From Nostoc sp. GT001 (lineage in GTDB: Bacteria > Cyanobacteriota > Cyanobacteriia > Cyanobacteriales > Nostocaceae), in assembly GCF_030382115.1 (NCBI RefSeq), contig NZ_JAUDRJ010000003.1:1494671-1525607 (forward strand): a DNA stretch of 30,937 bases, read 5' to 3'. Each line of letters begins with the position of its first letter. Position 1 is the stretch's first letter. The notes beneath the pieces are model-generated. The model was not told the DNA's origin and did no database searches. It saw nothing but the letters and a program-made list of their open reading frames with translations. Positions 2,106-13,474 of the stretch are shown here, piece by piece. The position numbers were made by a program, and so were the translations under genes.

Positions 2106-4016
2106 CTATTTTTTACCTTTTTTTTGGTAAATCATGGAATTTGGTATCCGTTTTAGTTTTTTCTCCATATTTAAATAGTCATTTAAAATAAAAATGAATA
2201 CATTACCGAGAAATTCGTTTTCCTGTAACAAGCTGTTCACAAGTTTAGAGTGATCTGTTTCATGAATACCTTCTAAAAAGCTCACTTCTCGCTTCAAAGC
2301 TAGAACGTAAAATGGTTTTTCAGGAAAAAATTGCATATTTTTTTGCACCAAGTAAGCAGTTTTTATATCAGGATGATGAGAAAACTGCTGACGAAGCTTA
2401 TTTACCTCTATATCTGAAACAGTATGAGATTCAAGTTTATCCTTTTCTCTGACACTGGAACGTTCTTCCTGTGCTTTTAAAATTAATTCATGATAATTTA
2501 CGGCACGTTCTTGATAAGATTTTGCTTCCTTAATTTTTCCTTGTTGTTGAAGAAAATAGCAAATTGTCTGACAACCTTCTATAACTATACTTGAGTCTTG
2601 TTCTATTGCTCTCTCAATGTATTCTATTCCGGTTTTATCCTGTTTATTTAGTAATATTTGACCTAGTAAATAATTAGCTGAGGCGTGGTGAGCATCACGA
2701 TGAATAATTTCTTGTAATAGTGGTATAACCGCTTCTTCACCCTCAAACTCAAATGTCAAAAATGCCCGTTGAGTAGCTTCATCTAAAGTTAGCTGTTGTG
2801 TTTTTGCTTTTTGATTTAAATCTTTTAAAGTAGCTATTGATTGTTGAAGATCAGCATATTTTTGTCGCCAAGGTGTTGCTATTTCTTCTCGCCAAGTTTG
2901 ACTAAAATGTGCGATAAATTTTTCTAACCTATTTCCCAATAGTTTCTGAGCAGCACTGATTTCAATTGGTGCAAATATAGCTAATTCCTGCTGAGGATTG
3001 AAGATGTATCCCAAGGCTTTTAGTCTATCTGTTAGGCAAGGATGAGTATCAGCATTATTAGTTTCTTTTGTTAAAGCTTCCATTAAATAACTACTTGTTA
3101 TTTCCTGATGAAGTCTCTGACTTAAAGCCTGTTGCATAGCCATATAAGTCATTTTTGGTGGTTCGATTTCTGTTTCAACTTGTTTATAGATGCTAGACCA
3201 AAAATATCTTTCTAGAAATCTAGCTTTGACCTCCACATTTATCAAAGCTTCAGCAGCATTTTGTTCTCCCGTTAGCTCAAGGGCACATCTATCTGCTTCA
3301 TATTCATCCATCCGTGCCAACACAAAAGAATAGGCATTAAAAAAGGGGCTGTACCATGTCAAAAATCGTTCAAAGATTAACGACGATACTTCATTTCCAC
3401 CTTGTCCTAGCCCTTTAATAATGCGATACCATGTTTCGCGTTGGCGATAAATCCAACCACTAAAACGGCTGTGATTTCCTGATAAATGTCCTAGTTCATG
3501 AGCTAATACGGCACGAAATTGTTCGGGTGGTAGTGCTAGCATGAGCGGTAGACCCACAATTAAGTAATTTTGCTGCCATCCCAGCAAACCTAAGCGTGGT
3601 CTTTGGACAACTGCTGCATTAAAATCGTTGGTCAGCAGAATGTGATGAAACCGTGGAGCTTTCAGTTTTGATGAGATTTCGTTGGTTAAAGAATAGAGAT
3701 TGGGTACATCTTTGGGTTGCAGTGGTAAACCTGTAGGCGGGGGAAAAGAAACCCAAAGCGATCGCACTAACACTAATGCAAACACCAGCAAAAATATAAC
3801 ACCTTTCAAAGATGACGCATTAACTGACTGAGCGTTCAGCATCAAAAAGATAATACTTACCAGCAGAGTCAAGGTTACAGCTAGAACCAAAAATATATAT
3901 GCGTAGCCCAAGGTAGCCAAAAAAGCAACGTGCAATTTATAAAGATGCGGTTGTTTGTTAGCAAAAACTTCTAACTTCTGAATTAGCCGATCAAAACGCT
4001 CTTGATTGAAAGCCAT
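2106..4016 (-). CDS. membrane-anchored M48 family zinc metallopeptidase with C-terminal TPR-like region
   Basis: The 636-residue product is a membrane-bound zinc protease of the M48 (HtpX/Ste24-like) type. Two hydrophobic segments at about residues 31-61 and 72-90 place it in a membrane. The zinc site is HELGH at 173-177, and the third ligand is in DEYEADRCA (Glu238, with Asp242 in the ExxxD pattern). A region at about 410-500 (the LLQEIIHRDAHHASANYLLGQ area) looks like TPR helices, which could recruit substrates. The last 100 residues are not recognised. It is longer than HtpX (about 290 residues), so it is a peptidase with extra C-terminal domains, probably for membrane protein quality control, which is inference. 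A 9-bp inverted repeat sits 6-42 bases before the ATG. Confidence 0.88.
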   Translation of the reverse strand: MAFNQERFDRLIQKLEVFANKQPHLYKLHVAFLATLGYAYIFLVLAVTLTLLVSIIFLMLNAQSVNASSLKGVIFLLVFALVLVRSLWVSFPPPTGLPLQPKDVPNLYSLTNEISSKLKAPRFHHILLTNDFNAAVVQRPRLGLLGWQQNYLIVGLPLMLALPPEQFRAVLAHELGHLSGNHSRFSGWIYRQRETWYRIIKGLGQGGNEVSSLIFERFLTWYSPFFNAYSFVLARMDEYEADRCALELTGEQNAAEALINVEVKARFLERYFWSSIYKQVETEIEPPKMTYMAMQQALSQRLHQEITSSYLMEALTKETNNADTHPCLTDRLKALGYIFNPQQELAIFAPIEISAAQKLLGNRLEKFIAHFSQTWREEIATPWRQKYADLQQSIATLKDLNQKAKTQQLTLDEATQRAFLTFEFEGEEAVIPLLQEIIHRDAHHASANYLLGQILLNKQDKTGIEYIERAIEQDSSIVIEGCQTICYFLQQQGKIKEAKSYQERAVNYHELILKAQEERSSVREKDKLESHTVSDIEVNKLRQQFSHHPDIKTAYLVQKNMQFFPEKPFYVLALKREVSFLEGIHETDHSKLVNSLLQENEFLGNVFIFILNDYLNMEKKLKRIPNSMIYQKKGKK

Positions 4017-5905: not shown

Positions 5906-7102
5906 TCAGACAGTTGGTTCCTGGTATTTGACTCCTCGTTTTTGATGACGGTCATTAGCAACGATAGGATAAACAATGCTGCGTAACCGATTGATTGCAC
6001 CGACTGGACGATGCACTGCTAGACCATTTCCAGGCGAAAAACTGAGATTTTCTCCAAAGTCATTATCTTTAGCAGAATTAACTTTCTGATGCTTAACTGT
6101 TAGGCGACCAACTGTAATGAAGGGTGATTCCTTTTCACTCCAAACAATGGTGGTATCATCAATAGACATTTCTGGGCTAGTTTGAAATTGAATTTGAAAG
6201 TCCCAACAATATTCAGCATCAGGCTTTGCTAAAGCTTGAATGATATCATCTCGGTAATAGTTGTCCTCTGAATCTGAAGCTTTGGCACGCTGAAGCTCAC
6301 TTTCTGGTCTAGATTCGAGAGGAAGTTGTTGATGAGGTAGTTGACTGGAAACTGGAGTAAATGCATATTTAATCACAACCGGATATTCTACAGGAACTCG
6401 ACCTGGTTGGGATGGAGCAAAATCAGATTTGAGTCCTAAAGAATACGCTGAAGCACTCCAATAGCGTTCTGTGAGCAAACTCTTGGGAAAACGTTTGAAA
6501 CTAGTTTGCAAAAGAGTGGATTCGTAGGGATGCAACTTTAGCCAAAAAAGCACCAACAGCTTAAAAAGCGGAAACAGCCCTGCTCGATAAACCGCCATAA
6601 AAAAGCTGTGGAAGTCTTTAATGGTTCTAACAAAAAAGAATTCAGTATTGTGGACAATAATATCTTGGGTTTTTAACTCGTGACTTTGCGGTAGTCTTTC
6701 TCCTTCTACCCCTATCACTTTTACGGACATGGAGCGCGTATCCCCTTCATAATCATTCTTGACTGAAAACGCACCATTTGCAAATCGTAGCCAAACCGGA
6801 TATTGCTTGGGTTGGGCAAATAAACCTTGTTTTAGAGAAATGGCTTGAAGTTGAGCTTCAGTTAATGAGGTGCGTTTGCTTAATTCCTGCTTAATTGTGG
6901 CTTCATCAAAGTCAAAGATTTCTAGAGTTCCTTGTACAGCAGCGTTAGTTTTAGAGTGGGTATCTCTCTTTGCAGTTTTTTTCTTCTCACCTCCGTAAAG
7001 ATTTTCCATGTTCTTTTTGACTAGCTCACTCATGAGAGCACAATATTTGGCTTCGTCTTTTTCTGGGTATTCGGTAAATAGTTTCATTTCTTTTGAAAGC
7101 AA
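5906..7102 (-). CDS. catalase-related hemoprotein, probable fatty-acid hydroperoxide lyase
   Basis: The 398-residue protein belongs to the catalase-related heme family that acts on fatty-acid hydroperoxides rather than H2O2. The distal side shows RDTHSKTNAAVQG with His49, and DIIVHNTEFFF with Asn152, matching the catalase His/Asn pair. The proximal ligand is Tyr378 in RLRSIVYP, preceded by Arg374 (RxxxY). A hydrophobic stretch at about 167-190 may touch membranes. In Nostoc punctiforme a neighbouring catalase-related protein and heme dioxygenase were shown (Brash group) to act in tandem, the former as a lyase specific for linoleate 10S-hydroperoxide. The same gene order here supports that role by inference. 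It is the last gene of the cassette, 110 bases after the dioxygenase gene. Allene oxide synthase activity is the main alternative. Confidence 0.85.
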   Translation of the reverse strand: MLSKEMKLFTEYPEKDEAKYCALMSELVKKNMENLYGGEKKKTAKRDTHSKTNAAVQGTLEIFDFDEATIKQELSKRTSLTEAQLQAISLKQGLFAQPKQYPVWLRFANGAFSVKNDYEGDTRSMSVKVIGVEGERLPQSHELKTQDIIVHNTEFFFVRTIKDFHSFFMAVYRAGLFPLFKLLVLFWLKLHPYESTLLQTSFKRFPKSLLTERYWSASAYSLGLKSDFAPSQPGRVPVEYPVVIKYAFTPVSSQLPHQQLPLESRPESELQRAKASDSEDNYYRDDIIQALAKPDAEYCWDFQIQFQTSPEMSIDDTTIVWSEKESPFITVGRLTVKHQKVNSAKDNDFGENLSFSPGNGLAVHRPVGAINRLRSIVYPIVANDRHQKRGVKYQEPTV

Positions 7103-7212
7103 GATTAATTAATAAATTGAGTTTGTTCCAAGCTGCGATCGCTAGCTTGTTTGCAGTATTGTCCAGTCAGCTTCGAGTGACACCAATGAGCGATCGCACT
7201 AAAAACCAATGT

Positions 7213-8844
7213 TTATTGAAGGTCAAAAGTAACTTTGTACTTTTTACCTGATGGCGGAACGTTGCGATTAACTAAATCTGAGACTGTGTTGGTATTTTGA
7301 ATTATTTTCCAACCCACAGGAGAAAAAGTCTTTTCATTGAAGATATTGGGTGATAGTAAAGGATTAGTTAGCGCTTGAGAAAAGGCATCAATCCCTATTA
7401 AGCGTGCTACTAGGGAAGGAATAGTTGAATTTTTCCGCCCATCCTCGGCGTAAAGTCCCACAAAGAACTCAATATTATCAACATGACCATATAATTCTTT
7501 GAGTTTCTCTTGAACAAATTTATCGCCGCTAATTTGCTCAAATCTCGTCACTCTGGGGAAACCACACAATTGGCGATAATCGTTGTAGCTTGCTAATTGC
7601 AGTTGCCGTCCTAATTTAATCGCGGGTAACTCGGTTAATTCAACCAATATATCAGGCGTGTTGAATAAACCAATTTTTGTACCTGCTTGGGAACAAGTTT
7701 CCTCCATTAATGCTCCCAAACCTTGATCGATGAACATCTTGTTGTTCCACAGAGATGCAGCAATATGGGTTGGTTTCCCGTTATATTTAAAAGTTTCTGG
7801 AATCGCACTATGCCAGCGATAAACAAAGTCAAACTCAATTGCCATGTAATTAGGACGATGCCAACTTTCCTTAGTGAAAGCTTCAGGATCGGCAAACAAC
7901 TTAAAGTGATAAGGAGTTATGTGGTTAATGTACTCCTCCATAATGATTTTGAGAATAATCGCCATGAGAATATTTCTCGCGGTTTGAAAGAGGCGTTCAT
8001 CATCCCAATCTGGATAATTGTTTGCTAATTCATCGCAAAGACGATTATGCTCCCGAAAACATAGAGTATTGAGCATGACATAGCCGATTTGCACATTTGC
8101 TCGTTCTACTCCCATCGCAAACAGATATTGTTTTTTTTCTACGGGCTGTCTTTTTTCATCATTGACAGGTTCATAAAGACCCTCAAATTGAGCGTCAACT
8201 TTACCCTGCGCTGGATCGGCATAATAAAATAAGGGATATTCTTCTTCTACACCATCTTGGCGCTGAAGCTTTTGAGATTTGAGTTTACCTCCTTTAAAGC
8301 TTCTTAAAAGGTGTGTTTGTTTTCTGGTTAAACCATAAACATTACACAAATCAATTTCATGGTTGGAAGTATTTTTGAATTTATTGTAGTGATCGAGGCG
8401 GAGAAAACTATCAGTAAACCACTGCACCCAATAGGGAAACAGCATAGTTGATTTGGTAGAATAAATGGTTTTACCATCTCTTTTACGGAATAAGATAGCT
8501 AAGTCTTCAACTTTGGGTAAGTTGCCCTCAGCGTTTAACTTGGGATCGGGTGGTAGATGTCGTCCGGTATAAGTGCGATCGTTGAGTGATTCCCAGGAAG
8601 TATAAGCATCAGTTTTCTTAGGAATTTTAGTATCAGGAATATACTCATCTAGAGTCATCATACTGTAGGCATTAGGACGAGTCGGAATTTTGTAGATGAG
8701 ACTATTGAGTAGAGTTTTGTTAACTTTACGCTTTATAGATTCGTTACTTTGTAGAAGTTTCCAAATCGGTTTAAAGTTTGTTAAAACTAATGTTTGAATT
8801 TTGTTACCTAAGCCATCTTTAGATGTATCTCTTTTTCCACTCAT
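7213..8844 (-). CDS. cyclooxygenase-like heme dioxygenase, probable linoleate 10S-dioxygenase
   Basis: The 543-residue protein belongs to the animal-type heme peroxidase/cyclooxygenase superfamily, but lacks the EGF and membrane-binding modules of true COX. The proximal region reads FVYRWHSAIPETF. His345 is the heme ligand, and Tyr342 sits where COX has its radical-forming Tyr385 (YxWH). FREHNRLC at 263-270 is the superfamily helix. On the distal side LFPYWVQWFTDSFLR keeps Gln141, but has Asp145 where COX and myeloperoxidase have the distal His. A Nostoc punctiforme relative next to a catalase-related gene is a linoleate/oleate 10S-dioxygenase, and the same reaction is inferred here. Automated labels such as cyclooxygenase-2 or peroxidase would mislead. 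It lies 80 bases after the DUF2235 gene and 110 before the lyase gene, so co-transcription is likely. Confidence 0.87.
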   Translation of the reverse strand: MSGKRDTSKDGLGNKIQTLVLTNFKPIWKLLQSNESIKRKVNKTLLNSLIYKIPTRPNAYSMMTLDEYIPDTKIPKKTDAYTSWESLNDRTYTGRHLPPDPKLNAEGNLPKVEDLAILFRKRDGKTIYSTKSTMLFPYWVQWFTDSFLRLDHYNKFKNTSNHEIDLCNVYGLTRKQTHLLRSFKGGKLKSQKLQRQDGVEEEYPLFYYADPAQGKVDAQFEGLYEPVNDEKRQPVEKKQYLFAMGVERANVQIGYVMLNTLCFREHNRLCDELANNYPDWDDERLFQTARNILMAIILKIIMEEYINHITPYHFKLFADPEAFTKESWHRPNYMAIEFDFVYRWHSAIPETFKYNGKPTHIAASLWNNKMFIDQGLGALMEETCSQAGTKIGLFNTPDILVELTELPAIKLGRQLQLASYNDYRQLCGFPRVTRFEQISGDKFVQEKLKELYGHVDNIEFFVGLYAEDGRKNSTIPSLVARLIGIDAFSQALTNPLLSPNIFNEKTFSPVGWKIIQNTNTVSDLVNRNVPPSGKKYKVTFDLQ

Positions 8845-8924
8845 AATTTTTTACCTTATTTTTTGCAATTATGTATTCAACGCATCCTAAATTTATCTGC
8901 TGCAATTACCCAAATTAATTCAAG

Positions 8925-9932
8925 TTATTTCAGTTTGGAAATAATCTTTTGTAGATTTTTTGGTCGATAGTCCTTGCGGCTTTTCAAACGGTAGATCGCA
9001 CTTTCATGAAGGTCTTCAATGACATCGCTGACCTCACGAAACTTAATTCCTGCTAATTTAAAGAATCCAGCATCGTTCTTAAAATCACATTCATAATTAG
9101 GGTTGATGCCTGTCGGAATCACATTTGGATCTAAGTCAAGCCCTAATCCTAGTTCACCGATGGAATCAATCATCCACTGTAAGGCAGCATCTGATAACCC
9201 ACTATTTTCTTCGGTTCCACCGCCAACGCAACCGTGTACGCCTGGAAACCACTTTTGAATCACCCGCTGTTTTTCAGCATCAGGATGCTTTTTCATGGGA
9301 GTGACATCAAAGATTTCACGGATTTCGTCAATCGCCATCGCGTGCAATGCATTCTGAACACATTTGTTTAAAGTAGTGTCATGGAATCTGTAGCGCATAT
9401 TAAGCTGTTTACTTAACCTACTAAAGGCTGGTATCCCAGGAATACCAAGGGCACCAACGGTGTCAAAACAACCGAGTAAGGTGATAGGGACGCGATCGCC
9501 ATAAGCTTGACGGTATTCTACTGCTACATTATCTTTGGGTTTAATATTTCGGTTACGGTAAAGCTCGTAGGCTTCATGTGCTTTAGTAACATGGGGGCGA
9601 TCTAGAAGACCAGAGCAATAGATCATGCTAGCTAAACTTCTAACTGTGTAAGCACCACGACTGAAGCCGAATAAATAGATTTCGTCACCAGAAACATAAT
9701 TGAGACTAAGAAATCGGTAGCAATCTTCTATATTTCTATCGATTCCTAGTCCGGTAGCTCCGCCTAAAACCTTTTGACCCTCGGTTCCAATGCCCTCATC
9801 ATAAAAGACGATTTGTGTAACGCCGTCACTAGCAATCGATTTCACGGATTGAGCTAACTTAACAACATTACTTGGGTAAAGACTTGTTAATTGTTGCCAA
9901 GTTCCATCACAGCAAATGACAAGACGTTTCAT
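8925..9932 (-). CDS. DUF2235 alpha/beta-hydrolase (phospholipase-like)
   Basis: The 335-residue product opens with MKRLVICCDGTWQQ, the DUF2235 signature, and has the nucleophile elbow GFSRGAYTVRSLA with Ser91 at the centre of GFSRG. The acidic YDEGIGT (44-50) and WFPGVHGCVGGG later in the chain (probable catalytic-His region) complete the fold. The same domain forms the catalytic core of Tle1-type phospholipase effectors of type VI secretion. No signal peptide or secretion partner is seen here. It is the first gene of the minus-strand cassette, 80 bases before the heme dioxygenase gene. A role as acyl hydrolase supplying free linoleate or oleate from membrane lipid is attractive, but is inference from family and position only. 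Confidence 0.82.
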   Translation of the reverse strand: MKRLVICCDGTWQQLTSLYPSNVVKLAQSVKSIASDGVTQIVFYDEGIGTEGQKVLGGATGLGIDRNIEDCYRFLSLNYVSGDEIYLFGFSRGAYTVRSLASMIYCSGLLDRPHVTKAHEAYELYRNRNIKPKDNVAVEYRQAYGDRVPITLLGCFDTVGALGIPGIPAFSRLSKQLNMRYRFHDTTLNKCVQNALHAMAIDEIREIFDVTPMKKHPDAEKQRVIQKWFPGVHGCVGGGTEENSGLSDAALQWMIDSIGELGLGLDLDPNVIPTGINPNYECDFKNDAGFFKLAGIKFREVSDVIEDLHESAIYRLKSRKDYRPKNLQKIISKLK

Positions 9933-10296
9933 AGTTTTTTTTCAAAGTATTTGAGTAATTAAATCAACTTTTTATCCAATGTAGATTCGGCATGGAGTTA
10001 GGGCAAATAGGACAAAAGCATTTATATATAAATCCTTTAGCGAAATATCCTCCCACTTTTTTAATAAGAATGCAAGGACAGTTAAGACAGTTAAGCAGGA
10101 AATTAAATAAATAAATATTAAGTAATCATTCACCACATATTTGGGTCTGTTCGCGAAGCGTCTCGTAGAGAAGCCCCGTGCTTCACGCAATGCTTTAAAG
10201 TAATGAGTAATGAGTAATGAGTGGATGAAAAATGGGTATTTACTCATTACTTATTACTTATTACTTATACTGATCCTTTACTAACGACCTTTTTCT
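9933..10296. other. spacer between DUF2235 gene and mtnA, half of it repeat copy A
   Basis: The left half is AT-rich without clear signals; the right half is a dispersed repeat (10124-10266). An open frame at 9972-10247 on the minus strand (91 codons) begins inside the repeat arm and ends in a part with two hydrophobic stretches (DYLIFIYLISCLTVLTVLAF and INAFVLFALTP). That part could be the remains of a small membrane protein, but the first 40 codons are repeat sequence and I do not call it a gene. The cassette promoter should lie near 9933-9990. Confidence 0.45.
10124..10266. repeat. dispersed ~145-bp repeat, copy A, with TAATGAG heptamer hairpin
   Basis: It shares with copy B (15810-15955) a nearly identical core beginning CACATATTTGGGTCTG and running through TTCGCGAAGCGTCTCG. 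The core is followed by TAATGAG heptamers (three here, four in copy B) and an inverted arm of CTCATTA/CTTATTA units. The arms can fold into a long hairpin. This looks like a non-autonomous, heptamer-rich element. It lies immediately before mtnA. Confidence 0.85.
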
Positions 10297-11915: not shown

Positions 11916-12050
11916 TCAAAGTCCCCCTTTTTAAGGGGGATTTAGGGGGATCAATACACATATTTCGTGAAAAGTTAGATCCCCGATTTCTTTGAGAAAT
12001 CGGGGATCTGGACATCGCGGATTTTTACAACTCAGATAGGATTGCTATAG
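11916..12050. repeat. dispersed palindromic repeats, including a truncated copy of the TATAGCAATCCT element
   Basis: Bases 11920-11951 carry a GTCCCCCTTTTTAAGGGGGA palindrome followed by TTTAGGGGGATC, a common Nostoc spacer repeat. From about 11964 the sequence follows the intact element at 17876-17979. It has TTCGTGAAAAGTTAGATCCC, a long AGATCCCCGATTTC/GAAATCGGGGATCT hairpin, and the right terminal repeat AGGATTGCTATA at 12038-12049. The left terminal repeat is missing, replaced by the first repeat. The icd stop codon follows within 3 bases, so this hairpin may also serve as the icd 3' end. Confidence 0.8.
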
Positions 12051-12052
12051 AC

Positions 12053-13474
12053 TTAACCAAAATGCTGAATAATTGCGTCGGCAAATTCAGAACATTTTAA
12101 GGGTTCAACTGGCGGTTCTAGCAACCGGGCTAAATCGTAGGTGACTTGACTATTTGCGATCGCATCGCTTAAACCTTTCTTAATTAGGTCTGCGGCTTCT
12201 TGCCAACCCAAAAATTCCAGCATCATCACACCAGACAAAATCACTGAACCAGGATTAATCCGATCTAAGCTCAGCGTGTTTGGGTGCAGTGCCGTGGGTA
12301 GCTTCAAATATGGCACTAGAATCACCAATATTTGCTCCTGGCCCCATTCCCAATCCCCCAACAATGGCAGCAGCAGCATCAGACAAATAATCGCCGTTCA
12401 AGTTCATCGTCGCCAAAATCGAATACTCATCCGGTCTGGTTTGGATTTGTTGAAAAATACTGTCAGCAATTCGGTCATTCACCAAAACTTTCTCTTTCCA
12501 TTTGCCATCGCCGTGGGTTGCCCAAATTGTGTTAAGAACAGTTTCGACTTCCTTGACAACTTGCGCTTTCTTATCTGGGGTAAGATTATCAAATCCAGGC
12601 TCAATCTGGCGGGCGTTTTCTTCCAAGGAAATATTGGGATTTTTTTCCTTGTTACTCAAAATCCAAGATTCTTGTTCAGTGACAGTTTCTTGGCGAAATT
12701 CGCTGGTTGCTAATTCATAACCCCAGTCGCGGAAAGCGCCTTCGGTGTACTTCATGATGTTGCCCTTATGCACCAAAGTCACTTGTTGTTTGTTTTTGGG
12801 CAATAGCAAGGCGTGTTTGATGGCACGTCTGACTAGGCGCTGAGAACCAGTTTTGCTGATGGGTTTGATGCCAATACCAGAATCAAGAGGGATGCGTTTT
12901 TTCCCATGTTCTGGGGTGGCGGGGATTAATTCTTCATTGAGAATTTTAATTAAGCGATCGCCGATTTCGCTACCTTGTCGCCACTCAATGCCTAAATAAA
13001 TATCTTCCGTATTTTCCCGATAAACAATTACATCCAGCTTTTCGGGATTTTTGTGGGGTGAGGGCGTACCTGCATAGTAACGGCAAGGACGCACGCAAGC
13101 ATACAAGTCAAAAATTTGTCGCAGCGCCACATTTAAAGAACGAATTCCCCCGCCAATGGGAGTAGTCAAAGGCCCTTTAATAGCTACACCATATTCTTCA
13201 ATTGCTGTGAGAGTGTCTTGAGGTAAATACTGATAAGTACCGTATAAATCACAAGCTTCGTCTCCAGCGTAAACCTTAAACCAGCTAATTTGACGCTGAC
13301 CCTTATATGCTTTAGCTACCGCAGCATCGAGAACTTTTTGGGTAGCAGGCCAGATGTCTATACCTGTGCCGTCGCCGCGAATAAAGGGGATAATTGGATT
13401 GTCCGGTACGATTGGTTCACCATTTTTGAAGGTGATTTTTGCTCCGGCTGCGGGGGGGTAATCTTTTCGTACAT
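12053..13474 (-). CDS. icd: NADP-dependent isocitrate dehydrogenase, two single-base frameshifts in this sequence
   Basis: Icd oxidises isocitrate to 2-oxoglutarate, the carbon skeleton for ammonium assimilation and the nitrogen-status signal in cyanobacteria. [56 protein letters not shown] and [20 protein letters not shown] are all intact. The correct start is the ATG at 13474, giving MYEKITPP. One C is missing from the C-run at about 13450-13456 (seven seen, eight needed), so the main frame instead appears to open from a GTG at 13481. Near the C terminus an extra A at 12267/12268 breaks the frame after GTAPKHAEL; restoring it gives [11 protein letters not shown]. The two indels cancel and the repaired protein has 473 residues, the normal length. 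Sequencing error is likeliest. It is divergent from gun4. Confidence 0.95.

Follow-up and report, generated by a model that had tools for sequence, protein, structure and literature searches.

A hydrolase gene heading a cyanobacterial dioxygenase and catalase-related gene pair: a probable three-step oxylipin cassette in Nostoc

What does a hydrolase gene of the DUF2235 family do at the head of a gene pair predicted to oxygenate and cleave fatty acids? The question is raised by a 30,937-nucleotide (nt) stretch of DNA from Nostoc sp. GT001 (the window), which lies on contig C3 of a 7.9-Mb cyanobacterial genome (G000) whose nearest named relatives, judged by the dioxygenase, are Nostoc strains. 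Three consecutive minus-strand open reading frames (ORFs) stand where an earlier inspection of the letters alone (the sequence-only reading) had placed a three-gene set: a DUF2235 alpha/beta hydrolase of 335 residues (8925..9932), a cyclooxygenase (COX)-like haem fatty acid dioxygenase of 543 residues (DOX, of the 10S-DOX type; 7213..8844) and a catalase-related haem protein of 393 residues counted from its ATG (CAT, a putative hydroperoxide lyase; 5906..7087). Pfam domains bear out the set. The Tle1-like phospholipase catalytic domain PF09994, of which DUF2235 is presumably the older name, matches residues 2-256 of the hydrolase (E 2.9e-79); animal haem peroxidase, PF03098, matches DOX (E 3.8e-52), and catalase, PF00199, matches CAT (E 3.6e-7). 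NCBIfam gave no match for any of the three proteins at E 0.01. We consider it quite probable that the genes encode the three steps of an oxylipin cassette, which is probably an operon, with a predicted lipase, predicted products and presumed co-transcription. The hydrolase would free C18 acids from membrane lipids, and DOX, by way of a Tyr342 radical, would convert the freed acid to its 10S-hydroperoxide, as expected from homology to a characterised enzyme. CAT, likewise by homology, would split linoleate 10S-hydroperoxide, giving 1-octen-3-ol as the C8 alcohol together with a C10 oxo-acid. The whole would amount to something like a phospholipase-to-cyclooxygenase cascade within one gene cluster.

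The first line of evidence is neighbourhood. Across 192 genomes of the same family (cut-offs E 1e-50 for DOX, E 1e-60 for DUF2235 and E 1e-40 for CAT), DOX was found at 50 places in 46 genomes, and 39 of these have DUF2235 as the next gene upstream in the same orientation, with 63-418 nt between the matches. At the thresholds used, 38 places carry all three genes, one carries the hydrolase and DOX, four carry DOX and CAT, and seven lack both partners where these would be expected. The sequence-only reading had counted the hydrolase into the unit and held that its absence beside all other dioxygenase/lyase pairs would tell against this; DUF2235 in fact adjoins 38/42 DOX-CAT pairs, versus 1/8 DOX genes without CAT directly downstream, and, as described below, it is fused to DOX in some lineages and replaced by another lipase once. 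Co-occurrence of DOX and DUF2235 gives a Fisher p of 5.5e-23, to be read with the caution that the genomes are related and so are not independent draws. The neighbourhood of the two genes is far beyond chance. CAT follows DOX directly at 42 of its 45 places, and no genome among the 192 has CAT without DOX. DUF2235 also lies directly upstream in 42 of the best 80 of 215 DOX loci in a scan of named records, several of the remainder being cut by contig ends or non-cyanobacterial. The linkage of the hydrolase to DOX-CAT is strongly supported.

Fusion and replacement of the hydrolase provide the second line. DUF2235 and DOX form one open frame in seven loci (L070, L074, L075, L076, L078, L079 and L098), with linkers of 117-144 nt, every one a multiple of three; L098 shares the linker of L078, is on a contig of equal length and is probably the same record. 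A protein search returned six clusters of fused DUF2235-DOX with 112 member sequences, both Pfam domains being present in each. The fusions occur in Microcoleus-type cyanobacteria. The six distinct fused rows sit at two places on the DOX tree, a single clade being rejected by the approximately unbiased (AU) test (p 1.0e-6); either there were two fusion events, or one fusion was later split. Such a fusion suggests that the fatty acid is handed on directly from the first step to the second. In Nostocales cyanobacterium HT-58-2, a class-3 lipase (PF01764, E 1.7e-28) is found directly upstream of DOX-CAT, at the position of DUF2235; it has no relative among the other loci in that comparison. A short Eremiobacterota contig (L042) has a DUF900 alpha/beta hydrolase after DOX, as a weak match (E 3.2e-5). 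Two Planctomycetales contigs (L090 and L093) carry DOX relatives within 770-residue frames with a seemingly membrane-spanning N-terminal stretch, which in L090 has no Pfam match; L089 and L095 also have long frames, which in G+C-rich DNA may be open by chance.

The second and third steps can be judged residue by residue. Of the 543 residues of DOX, 20-529 can be aligned with cyclooxygenase-2 (E 1e-63), and the COX-type pair Tyr342 and His345, singled out by the sequence-only reading, is kept in 87/87 aligned rows (these, like the 61 rows used for CAT, include the window itself and the duplicate records L002 and L123). The distal His207 of COX is replaced by Asp145, which is conserved across relatives, and Ser530 by Ala487. 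DOX is therefore not a prostaglandin synthase, and identity with a prostaglandin-forming cyclooxygenase was ruled out. In the passages available from a 2026 review, the residues named for the 10S-DOX of Nostoc punctiforme are Ile306, Thr310, Phe143-tds-Phe147, Trp84-Asn88, Gly469, Ile483 and Asp486-Ala487, and the enzyme is stated to convert oleic and linoleic acid to 10S-hydroperoxides (PMC13049297). The window DOX has every cited residue that was compared (Ile306, Thr310, Phe143/Phe147, Trp84-Asn88, Gly469, Ile483 and Asp486-Ala487).

For CAT, residue numbers count from an upstream TTG codon, and subtracting 5 gives the numbering from ATG. His49, Arg374 and Tyr378 are present in 61/61 aligned rows and Asn152 in 59/61, so the motifs read earlier from the letters hold up; the protein has the distal His/Asn and the proximal R-x3-Y in a catalase fold. 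A profile search of the PDB found 3E4W, a small catalase-related protein, and 1U5U, an allene oxide synthase from coral, and the predicted model matches the catalase fold (predicted local distance difference test score, pLDDT, 71.5). Single-sequence PDB searches with CAT and with DUF2235 found nothing at E 0.001, and profiles were needed. According to the passages available from PMC9579011, N. punctiforme has a catalase-like haem protein that forms 1-octen-3-ol by cleavage of 10S-hydroperoxyoctadecadienoic acid. By its sequence, the DOX/CAT pair is of this known 10S-dioxygenase/hydroperoxide-lyase kind, its chemistry being predicted, and the likeness to the N. punctiforme pair proposed at the outset is supported by both the cited DOX residues and the literature. 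Brash et al. in 2014 are said to have found the C10 oxo-acid as the second product of the N. punctiforme lyase, and the order of the two genes there is reportedly the same as here. A distant catalase-related protein (26-30% identity to CAT, about 350 residues) directly follows DOX in L044, L056, L060, L083, L086 and L005; in L056 and L060 an Asp replaces the distal Asn.

The first step depends on what the hydrolase is. The triad Ser91-Asp157-His233 is present in 48/48 aligned DUF2235 rows and in 24/24 rows of a second alignment (A2). The AlphaFold model (pLDDT 87.8) has Tle1-type phospholipases as its top PDB matches, and in a profile alignment the triad falls on Ser240-Asp280-His347 of TleB. 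TleB acting on lecithin yields C18H32O2 and C16H32O2, and phospholipase A activity is reported for it, in the passages available from PMC12421835. We infer from these sequence and fold likenesses that the DUF2235 protein may act as a lipase that frees a C18 acid; the genome of the window has 11 matches to fatty acid desaturases. The same gene set and the same fusion would be expected if the hydrolase acted after oxygenation, with DOX oxidising lipid-bound acyl chains and DUF2235 releasing the oxidised acyl group or cleaving an oxylipin ester, and first place in the cassette does not set the order of reactions. We regard this as unlikely, if the strongest of the alternatives: the published 10S-DOX takes oleic and linoleic acid themselves as substrates (PMC13049297, in the passages available), and TleB, with the same fold, acts on ordinary lecithin (PMC12421835, likewise). 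Still less likely is an acyl-acyl carrier protein or acyl-coenzyme A thioesterase that draws free acid from the biosynthetic pool, a reading to which Foldseek lends something by ranking thioesterases just below the Tle1 group for the DUF2235 model.

If the hydrolase does supply a free acid, the enzyme that receives it need not always be the same. Two DOX types occur among the 42 loci with all three genes, at 73-100% versus 55-58% identity to that of the window. Ile306, Thr310, Ile483 and Asp486-Ala487 are identical in nearly all members of both, and some neighbouring residues vary by type, with Ala347 changed to Met in most second-type proteins. Going by those cited sites, both types would be predicted to make the same 10S-hydroperoxide. 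The two types are intermixed in the CAT and DUF2235 trees, for which all three genes were required at 80% length, loci cut by contig ends were excluded and the duplicates L002 and L123 were omitted. Nostoc sp. LPT (L063) has CAT at 91% and DUF2235 at 89% identity, yet DOX at 58%; in Microcoleus (L040, L041 and L081) the first DOX type is paired with the other CAT/DUF2235 clade. Holding the second-type (DOX2) rows together was rejected with all rows (AU p 1.6e-65 for CAT and 4.9e-49 for DUF2235, L128 also being omitted for its long branch) and for the Microcoleus case alone (2.5e-9 and 8.6e-6); without the Microcoleus DOX1 rows, the remaining Nostoc/Hassallia case reached only 0.04 and 0.051, and all these values flatter the case for exchange, the groups having been named after the first tree was seen. 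Judged from these trees, cassettes that are otherwise conserved seem to have swapped one DOX for another; the pattern would be no different if both types had been present from early on and were later lost here and there. In Hassallia byssoidea (L061 and L030), DUF2235 is found on contigs that also hold several copies of CAT and DOX of both types, and two contig ends overlap by 63 nt. These contigs are possibly one enlarged cluster, but a further CAT place in that genome (G247:C57) could also be the one that joins.

A wider change of partner is seen where DUF2235 copies of the same clade lie away from DOX, since these mostly head a lipoxygenase-like cassette. In L190 (3435-8810) and L192 (3230-8602) the order is DUF2235, a small gene (which Pfam classes as NTF2-like in L190), P450 and a lipoxygenase-like gene; L125 (1967-6713) and L195 (3323-8788) have DUF2235, P450 and the lipoxygenase-like gene, L194 (4876-8419) has DUF2235 and the lipoxygenase-like gene, and L196 has these two with its DUF2235 interrupted. 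This makes six genomes, four of them with P450. The lipoxygenase-like protein is found in 10/192 genomes, of which these six have the DUF2235-headed cassette; in two (G163 and G235) it is only a 41% relative. Pfam recognises the lipoxygenase domain only in part (E 2e-9 to 4e-11), and the five proteins inspected keep H-x4-H, H-x3-N and a C-terminal Ile or Val, which we take to be the canonical lipoxygenase ligand pattern. DUF2235 at no less than 64% identity to the L125 copy occurs at 47 places, 38 adjoining DOX and six the lipoxygenase-like gene; the other three are G204, G182:C80 (a lipoxygenase remnant match only) and G284:C59 (a contig-end fragment). Of 12 lower-identity places, one adjoins DOX (G284:C63, a contig-end fragment), and the eight of the 12 that were examined (43-54% identity to the DUF2235 of the window) have none of these oxygenases within 12-kb neighbourhoods. 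The AU test did not reject a single clade for the five lipoxygenase-cassette DUF2235 proteins tested (p 0.31), so the case for a switch of partner from one cassette type to the other depends solely on where L192 is placed (99/94). In L039 (4659-11983), a locus without DUF2235, DOX-CAT is immediately preceded by P450 and lipoxygenase-like genes of the same orientation, with two oxygenase modules adjoining each other. The window genome itself has a lipoxygenase match split across two overlapping places (G000:C3:4893313-4894651; L132 and L133), either through a frameshift or through an assembly error.

We lean, by a little, towards a broader reading in which this DUF2235 clade would be a dedicated cyanobacterial oxylipin lipase, a common first enzyme to which different oxygenase modules can be coupled (CAT with either of two DOX types, or a lipoxygenase that mostly comes with P450). 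In Microcoleus relatives it would be part of a single lipase-dioxygenase polypeptide that takes a fatty acid all the way from membrane lipid to the hydroperoxide, so that one prokaryotic protein would parallel the phospholipase-cyclooxygenase cascade. That DUF2235 has nothing to do with its neighbours and was simply inherited beside them by related lineages would fit the kinship of the family genomes and the 11/50 DOX places without an adjacent copy; it is by now largely refuted, and we hold it very improbable, given the fused DOX on two tree branches, the substitution of another lipase in HT-58-2, the sharing of DUF2235 between DOX and lipoxygenase cassettes, and the eight paralogues without these oxygenases nearby. 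Least credible of all is an antibacterial effector of the type VI secretion system (T6SS) with no metabolic role, as the Pfam name and best PDB matches (T6SS phospholipases) might suggest, for the protein has only 335 residues with a catalytic domain match at 2-256, its partners in relatives are oxygenases, and Pfam found no VgrG or T6SS part among the eight window proteins scanned.

Several observations weigh against the lipase-first cassette that we prefer. The DUF2235 fold is also like those of thioesterases and esterases, and the CAT model is only of middling confidence. Besides HT-58-2 (G188), three genomes have a DOX-CAT pair without DUF2235 (G175, G203 and G230), with no known replacement, their neighbours having had no Pfam scan. 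The seven DOX places with neither partner where expected count in the same direction, and DOX may work without DUF2235; among the seven, G247:C132 (L201) has CAT upstream rather than downstream, and G146:C53 (L083) and G196 (L086) have the distant catalase-related gene downstream, below the search threshold. Conversely, the DUF2235 of G204 (L191), 88% identical to that of the window, has none of these oxygenases, and no DUF2235 match was found in G236 and G310, which carry close relatives of the lipoxygenase-like protein.

The layout of the locus is compatible with an operon. The sequence-only reading gave gaps of 80 and 110 nt, of which the first stands (DUF2235-DOX, 8845..8924) and the second does not. 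The CAT ORF reaches back to a TTG at 7102, and relatives start at or beside codon 6 with a shared K-L-F-T-E-Y-P; because their starts fall on the same residues, the CAT start is probably the ATG at 7087, and the DOX-CAT gap is therefore 125 nt (7088..7212). Neither gap has a terminator-like site on the coding minus strand. Promoter and terminator scans found sites in numbers no higher than in shuffled sequence, so the operon is neither proven nor excluded by them. We also weighed a 91-residue ORF at 9972-10247 as a possible fourth gene but dismissed it: it has no Pfam or NCBIfam match, its sequence is repeat-rich, its relatives are 32-34-residue fragments in four other loci (L002, L016, L020 and L021, the first two being the same place), and a 25-nt inverted repeat (10198-10266) overlaps it. 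It is probably not a gene.

The gene mtnA lies directly upstream of the cassette in the window and in several Nostoc; in L063, matches to a 5' fragment of mtnA flank the cassette on both sides (3523-3753 and 11936-12358) and may mark how it moves. The distribution of the cassette is patchy, with four full-length DOX at 91% identity or more and one truncated DOX in 23 same-genus genomes. One same-genus genome has a decayed cassette (L006), where DUF2235 matches from residue 53, DOX to residue 207 and CAT from residue 264, and in L124 (4265-9788) a DDE transposase gene splits DOX in two while the DUF2235 and CAT frames are open.

How much of this is new? Among the papers listed by searches of open-licence PubMed Central (PMC) text we found no account of the three-gene unit, as the sequence-only reading had surmised, and nothing linking DUF2235 to cyanobacterial cyclooxygenase, catalase or oxylipins; the DUF2235 literature there is, by title, mostly on type VI secretion. 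The DOX/CAT pair itself is known. Within the range of those searches, there appears to be no description of a hydrolase as the third member, of its fusion to DOX or of its presence in a lipoxygenase cassette as well. Arthrospira is presumably the cyanobacterium coded AP in a published table of 1-octen-3-ol. The alcohol is tabulated for AP in PMC8901680, whose available passages are silent on these genes. If the proposal is true, it supplies the substrate-release step of bacterial 1-octen-3-ol formation and a metabolic role for a domain family treated in the literature found mainly as secreted phospholipases. The fusion proteins make it possible to test whether the fatty acid passes directly from one active site to the next, and exchange of DOX types beside near-identical CAT provides natural pairs for specificity tests.

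Four known systems bear comparison. The N. punctiforme 10S-DOX/lyase system (known here through the available passages of PMC13049297 and PMC9579011) has the same two enzyme kinds and the same cited DOX active-site residues; it is described there as a pair, whereas the window cassette adds a hydrolase gene at its head, fused to DOX in some relatives. The Tle1/TleB phospholipases of the T6SS (PF09994; PDB 4O5P, 6SJL and 9J3F) have the fold, the Ser-Asp-His triad and the motif context in common with DUF2235. Unlike them, the protein of the window lacks a large C-terminal domain beyond its catalytic module and a secretion context, and it stands beside fatty acid oxygenases. The mushroom 1-octen-3-ol route (CcDOX1 of Coprinopsis) shares the 10S-hydroperoxide intermediate and the C8 alcohol, but its DOX is fused to a P450-like domain and its cleavage enzyme is given as unknown in the available passages of PMC9579011. 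Finally, there is the animal cascade. In animals, phospholipase A2 releases the acyl chain, a COX-fold enzyme dioxygenates it and a terminal haem synthase rearranges the product. The logic is the same, with separate cellular enzymes there and a gene cluster or fusion here; if our reading is true, the lipase, COX-fold oxygenase and haem-lyase logic of animal eicosanoids would also exist in a bacterial gene cluster, and even in a fusion enzyme.
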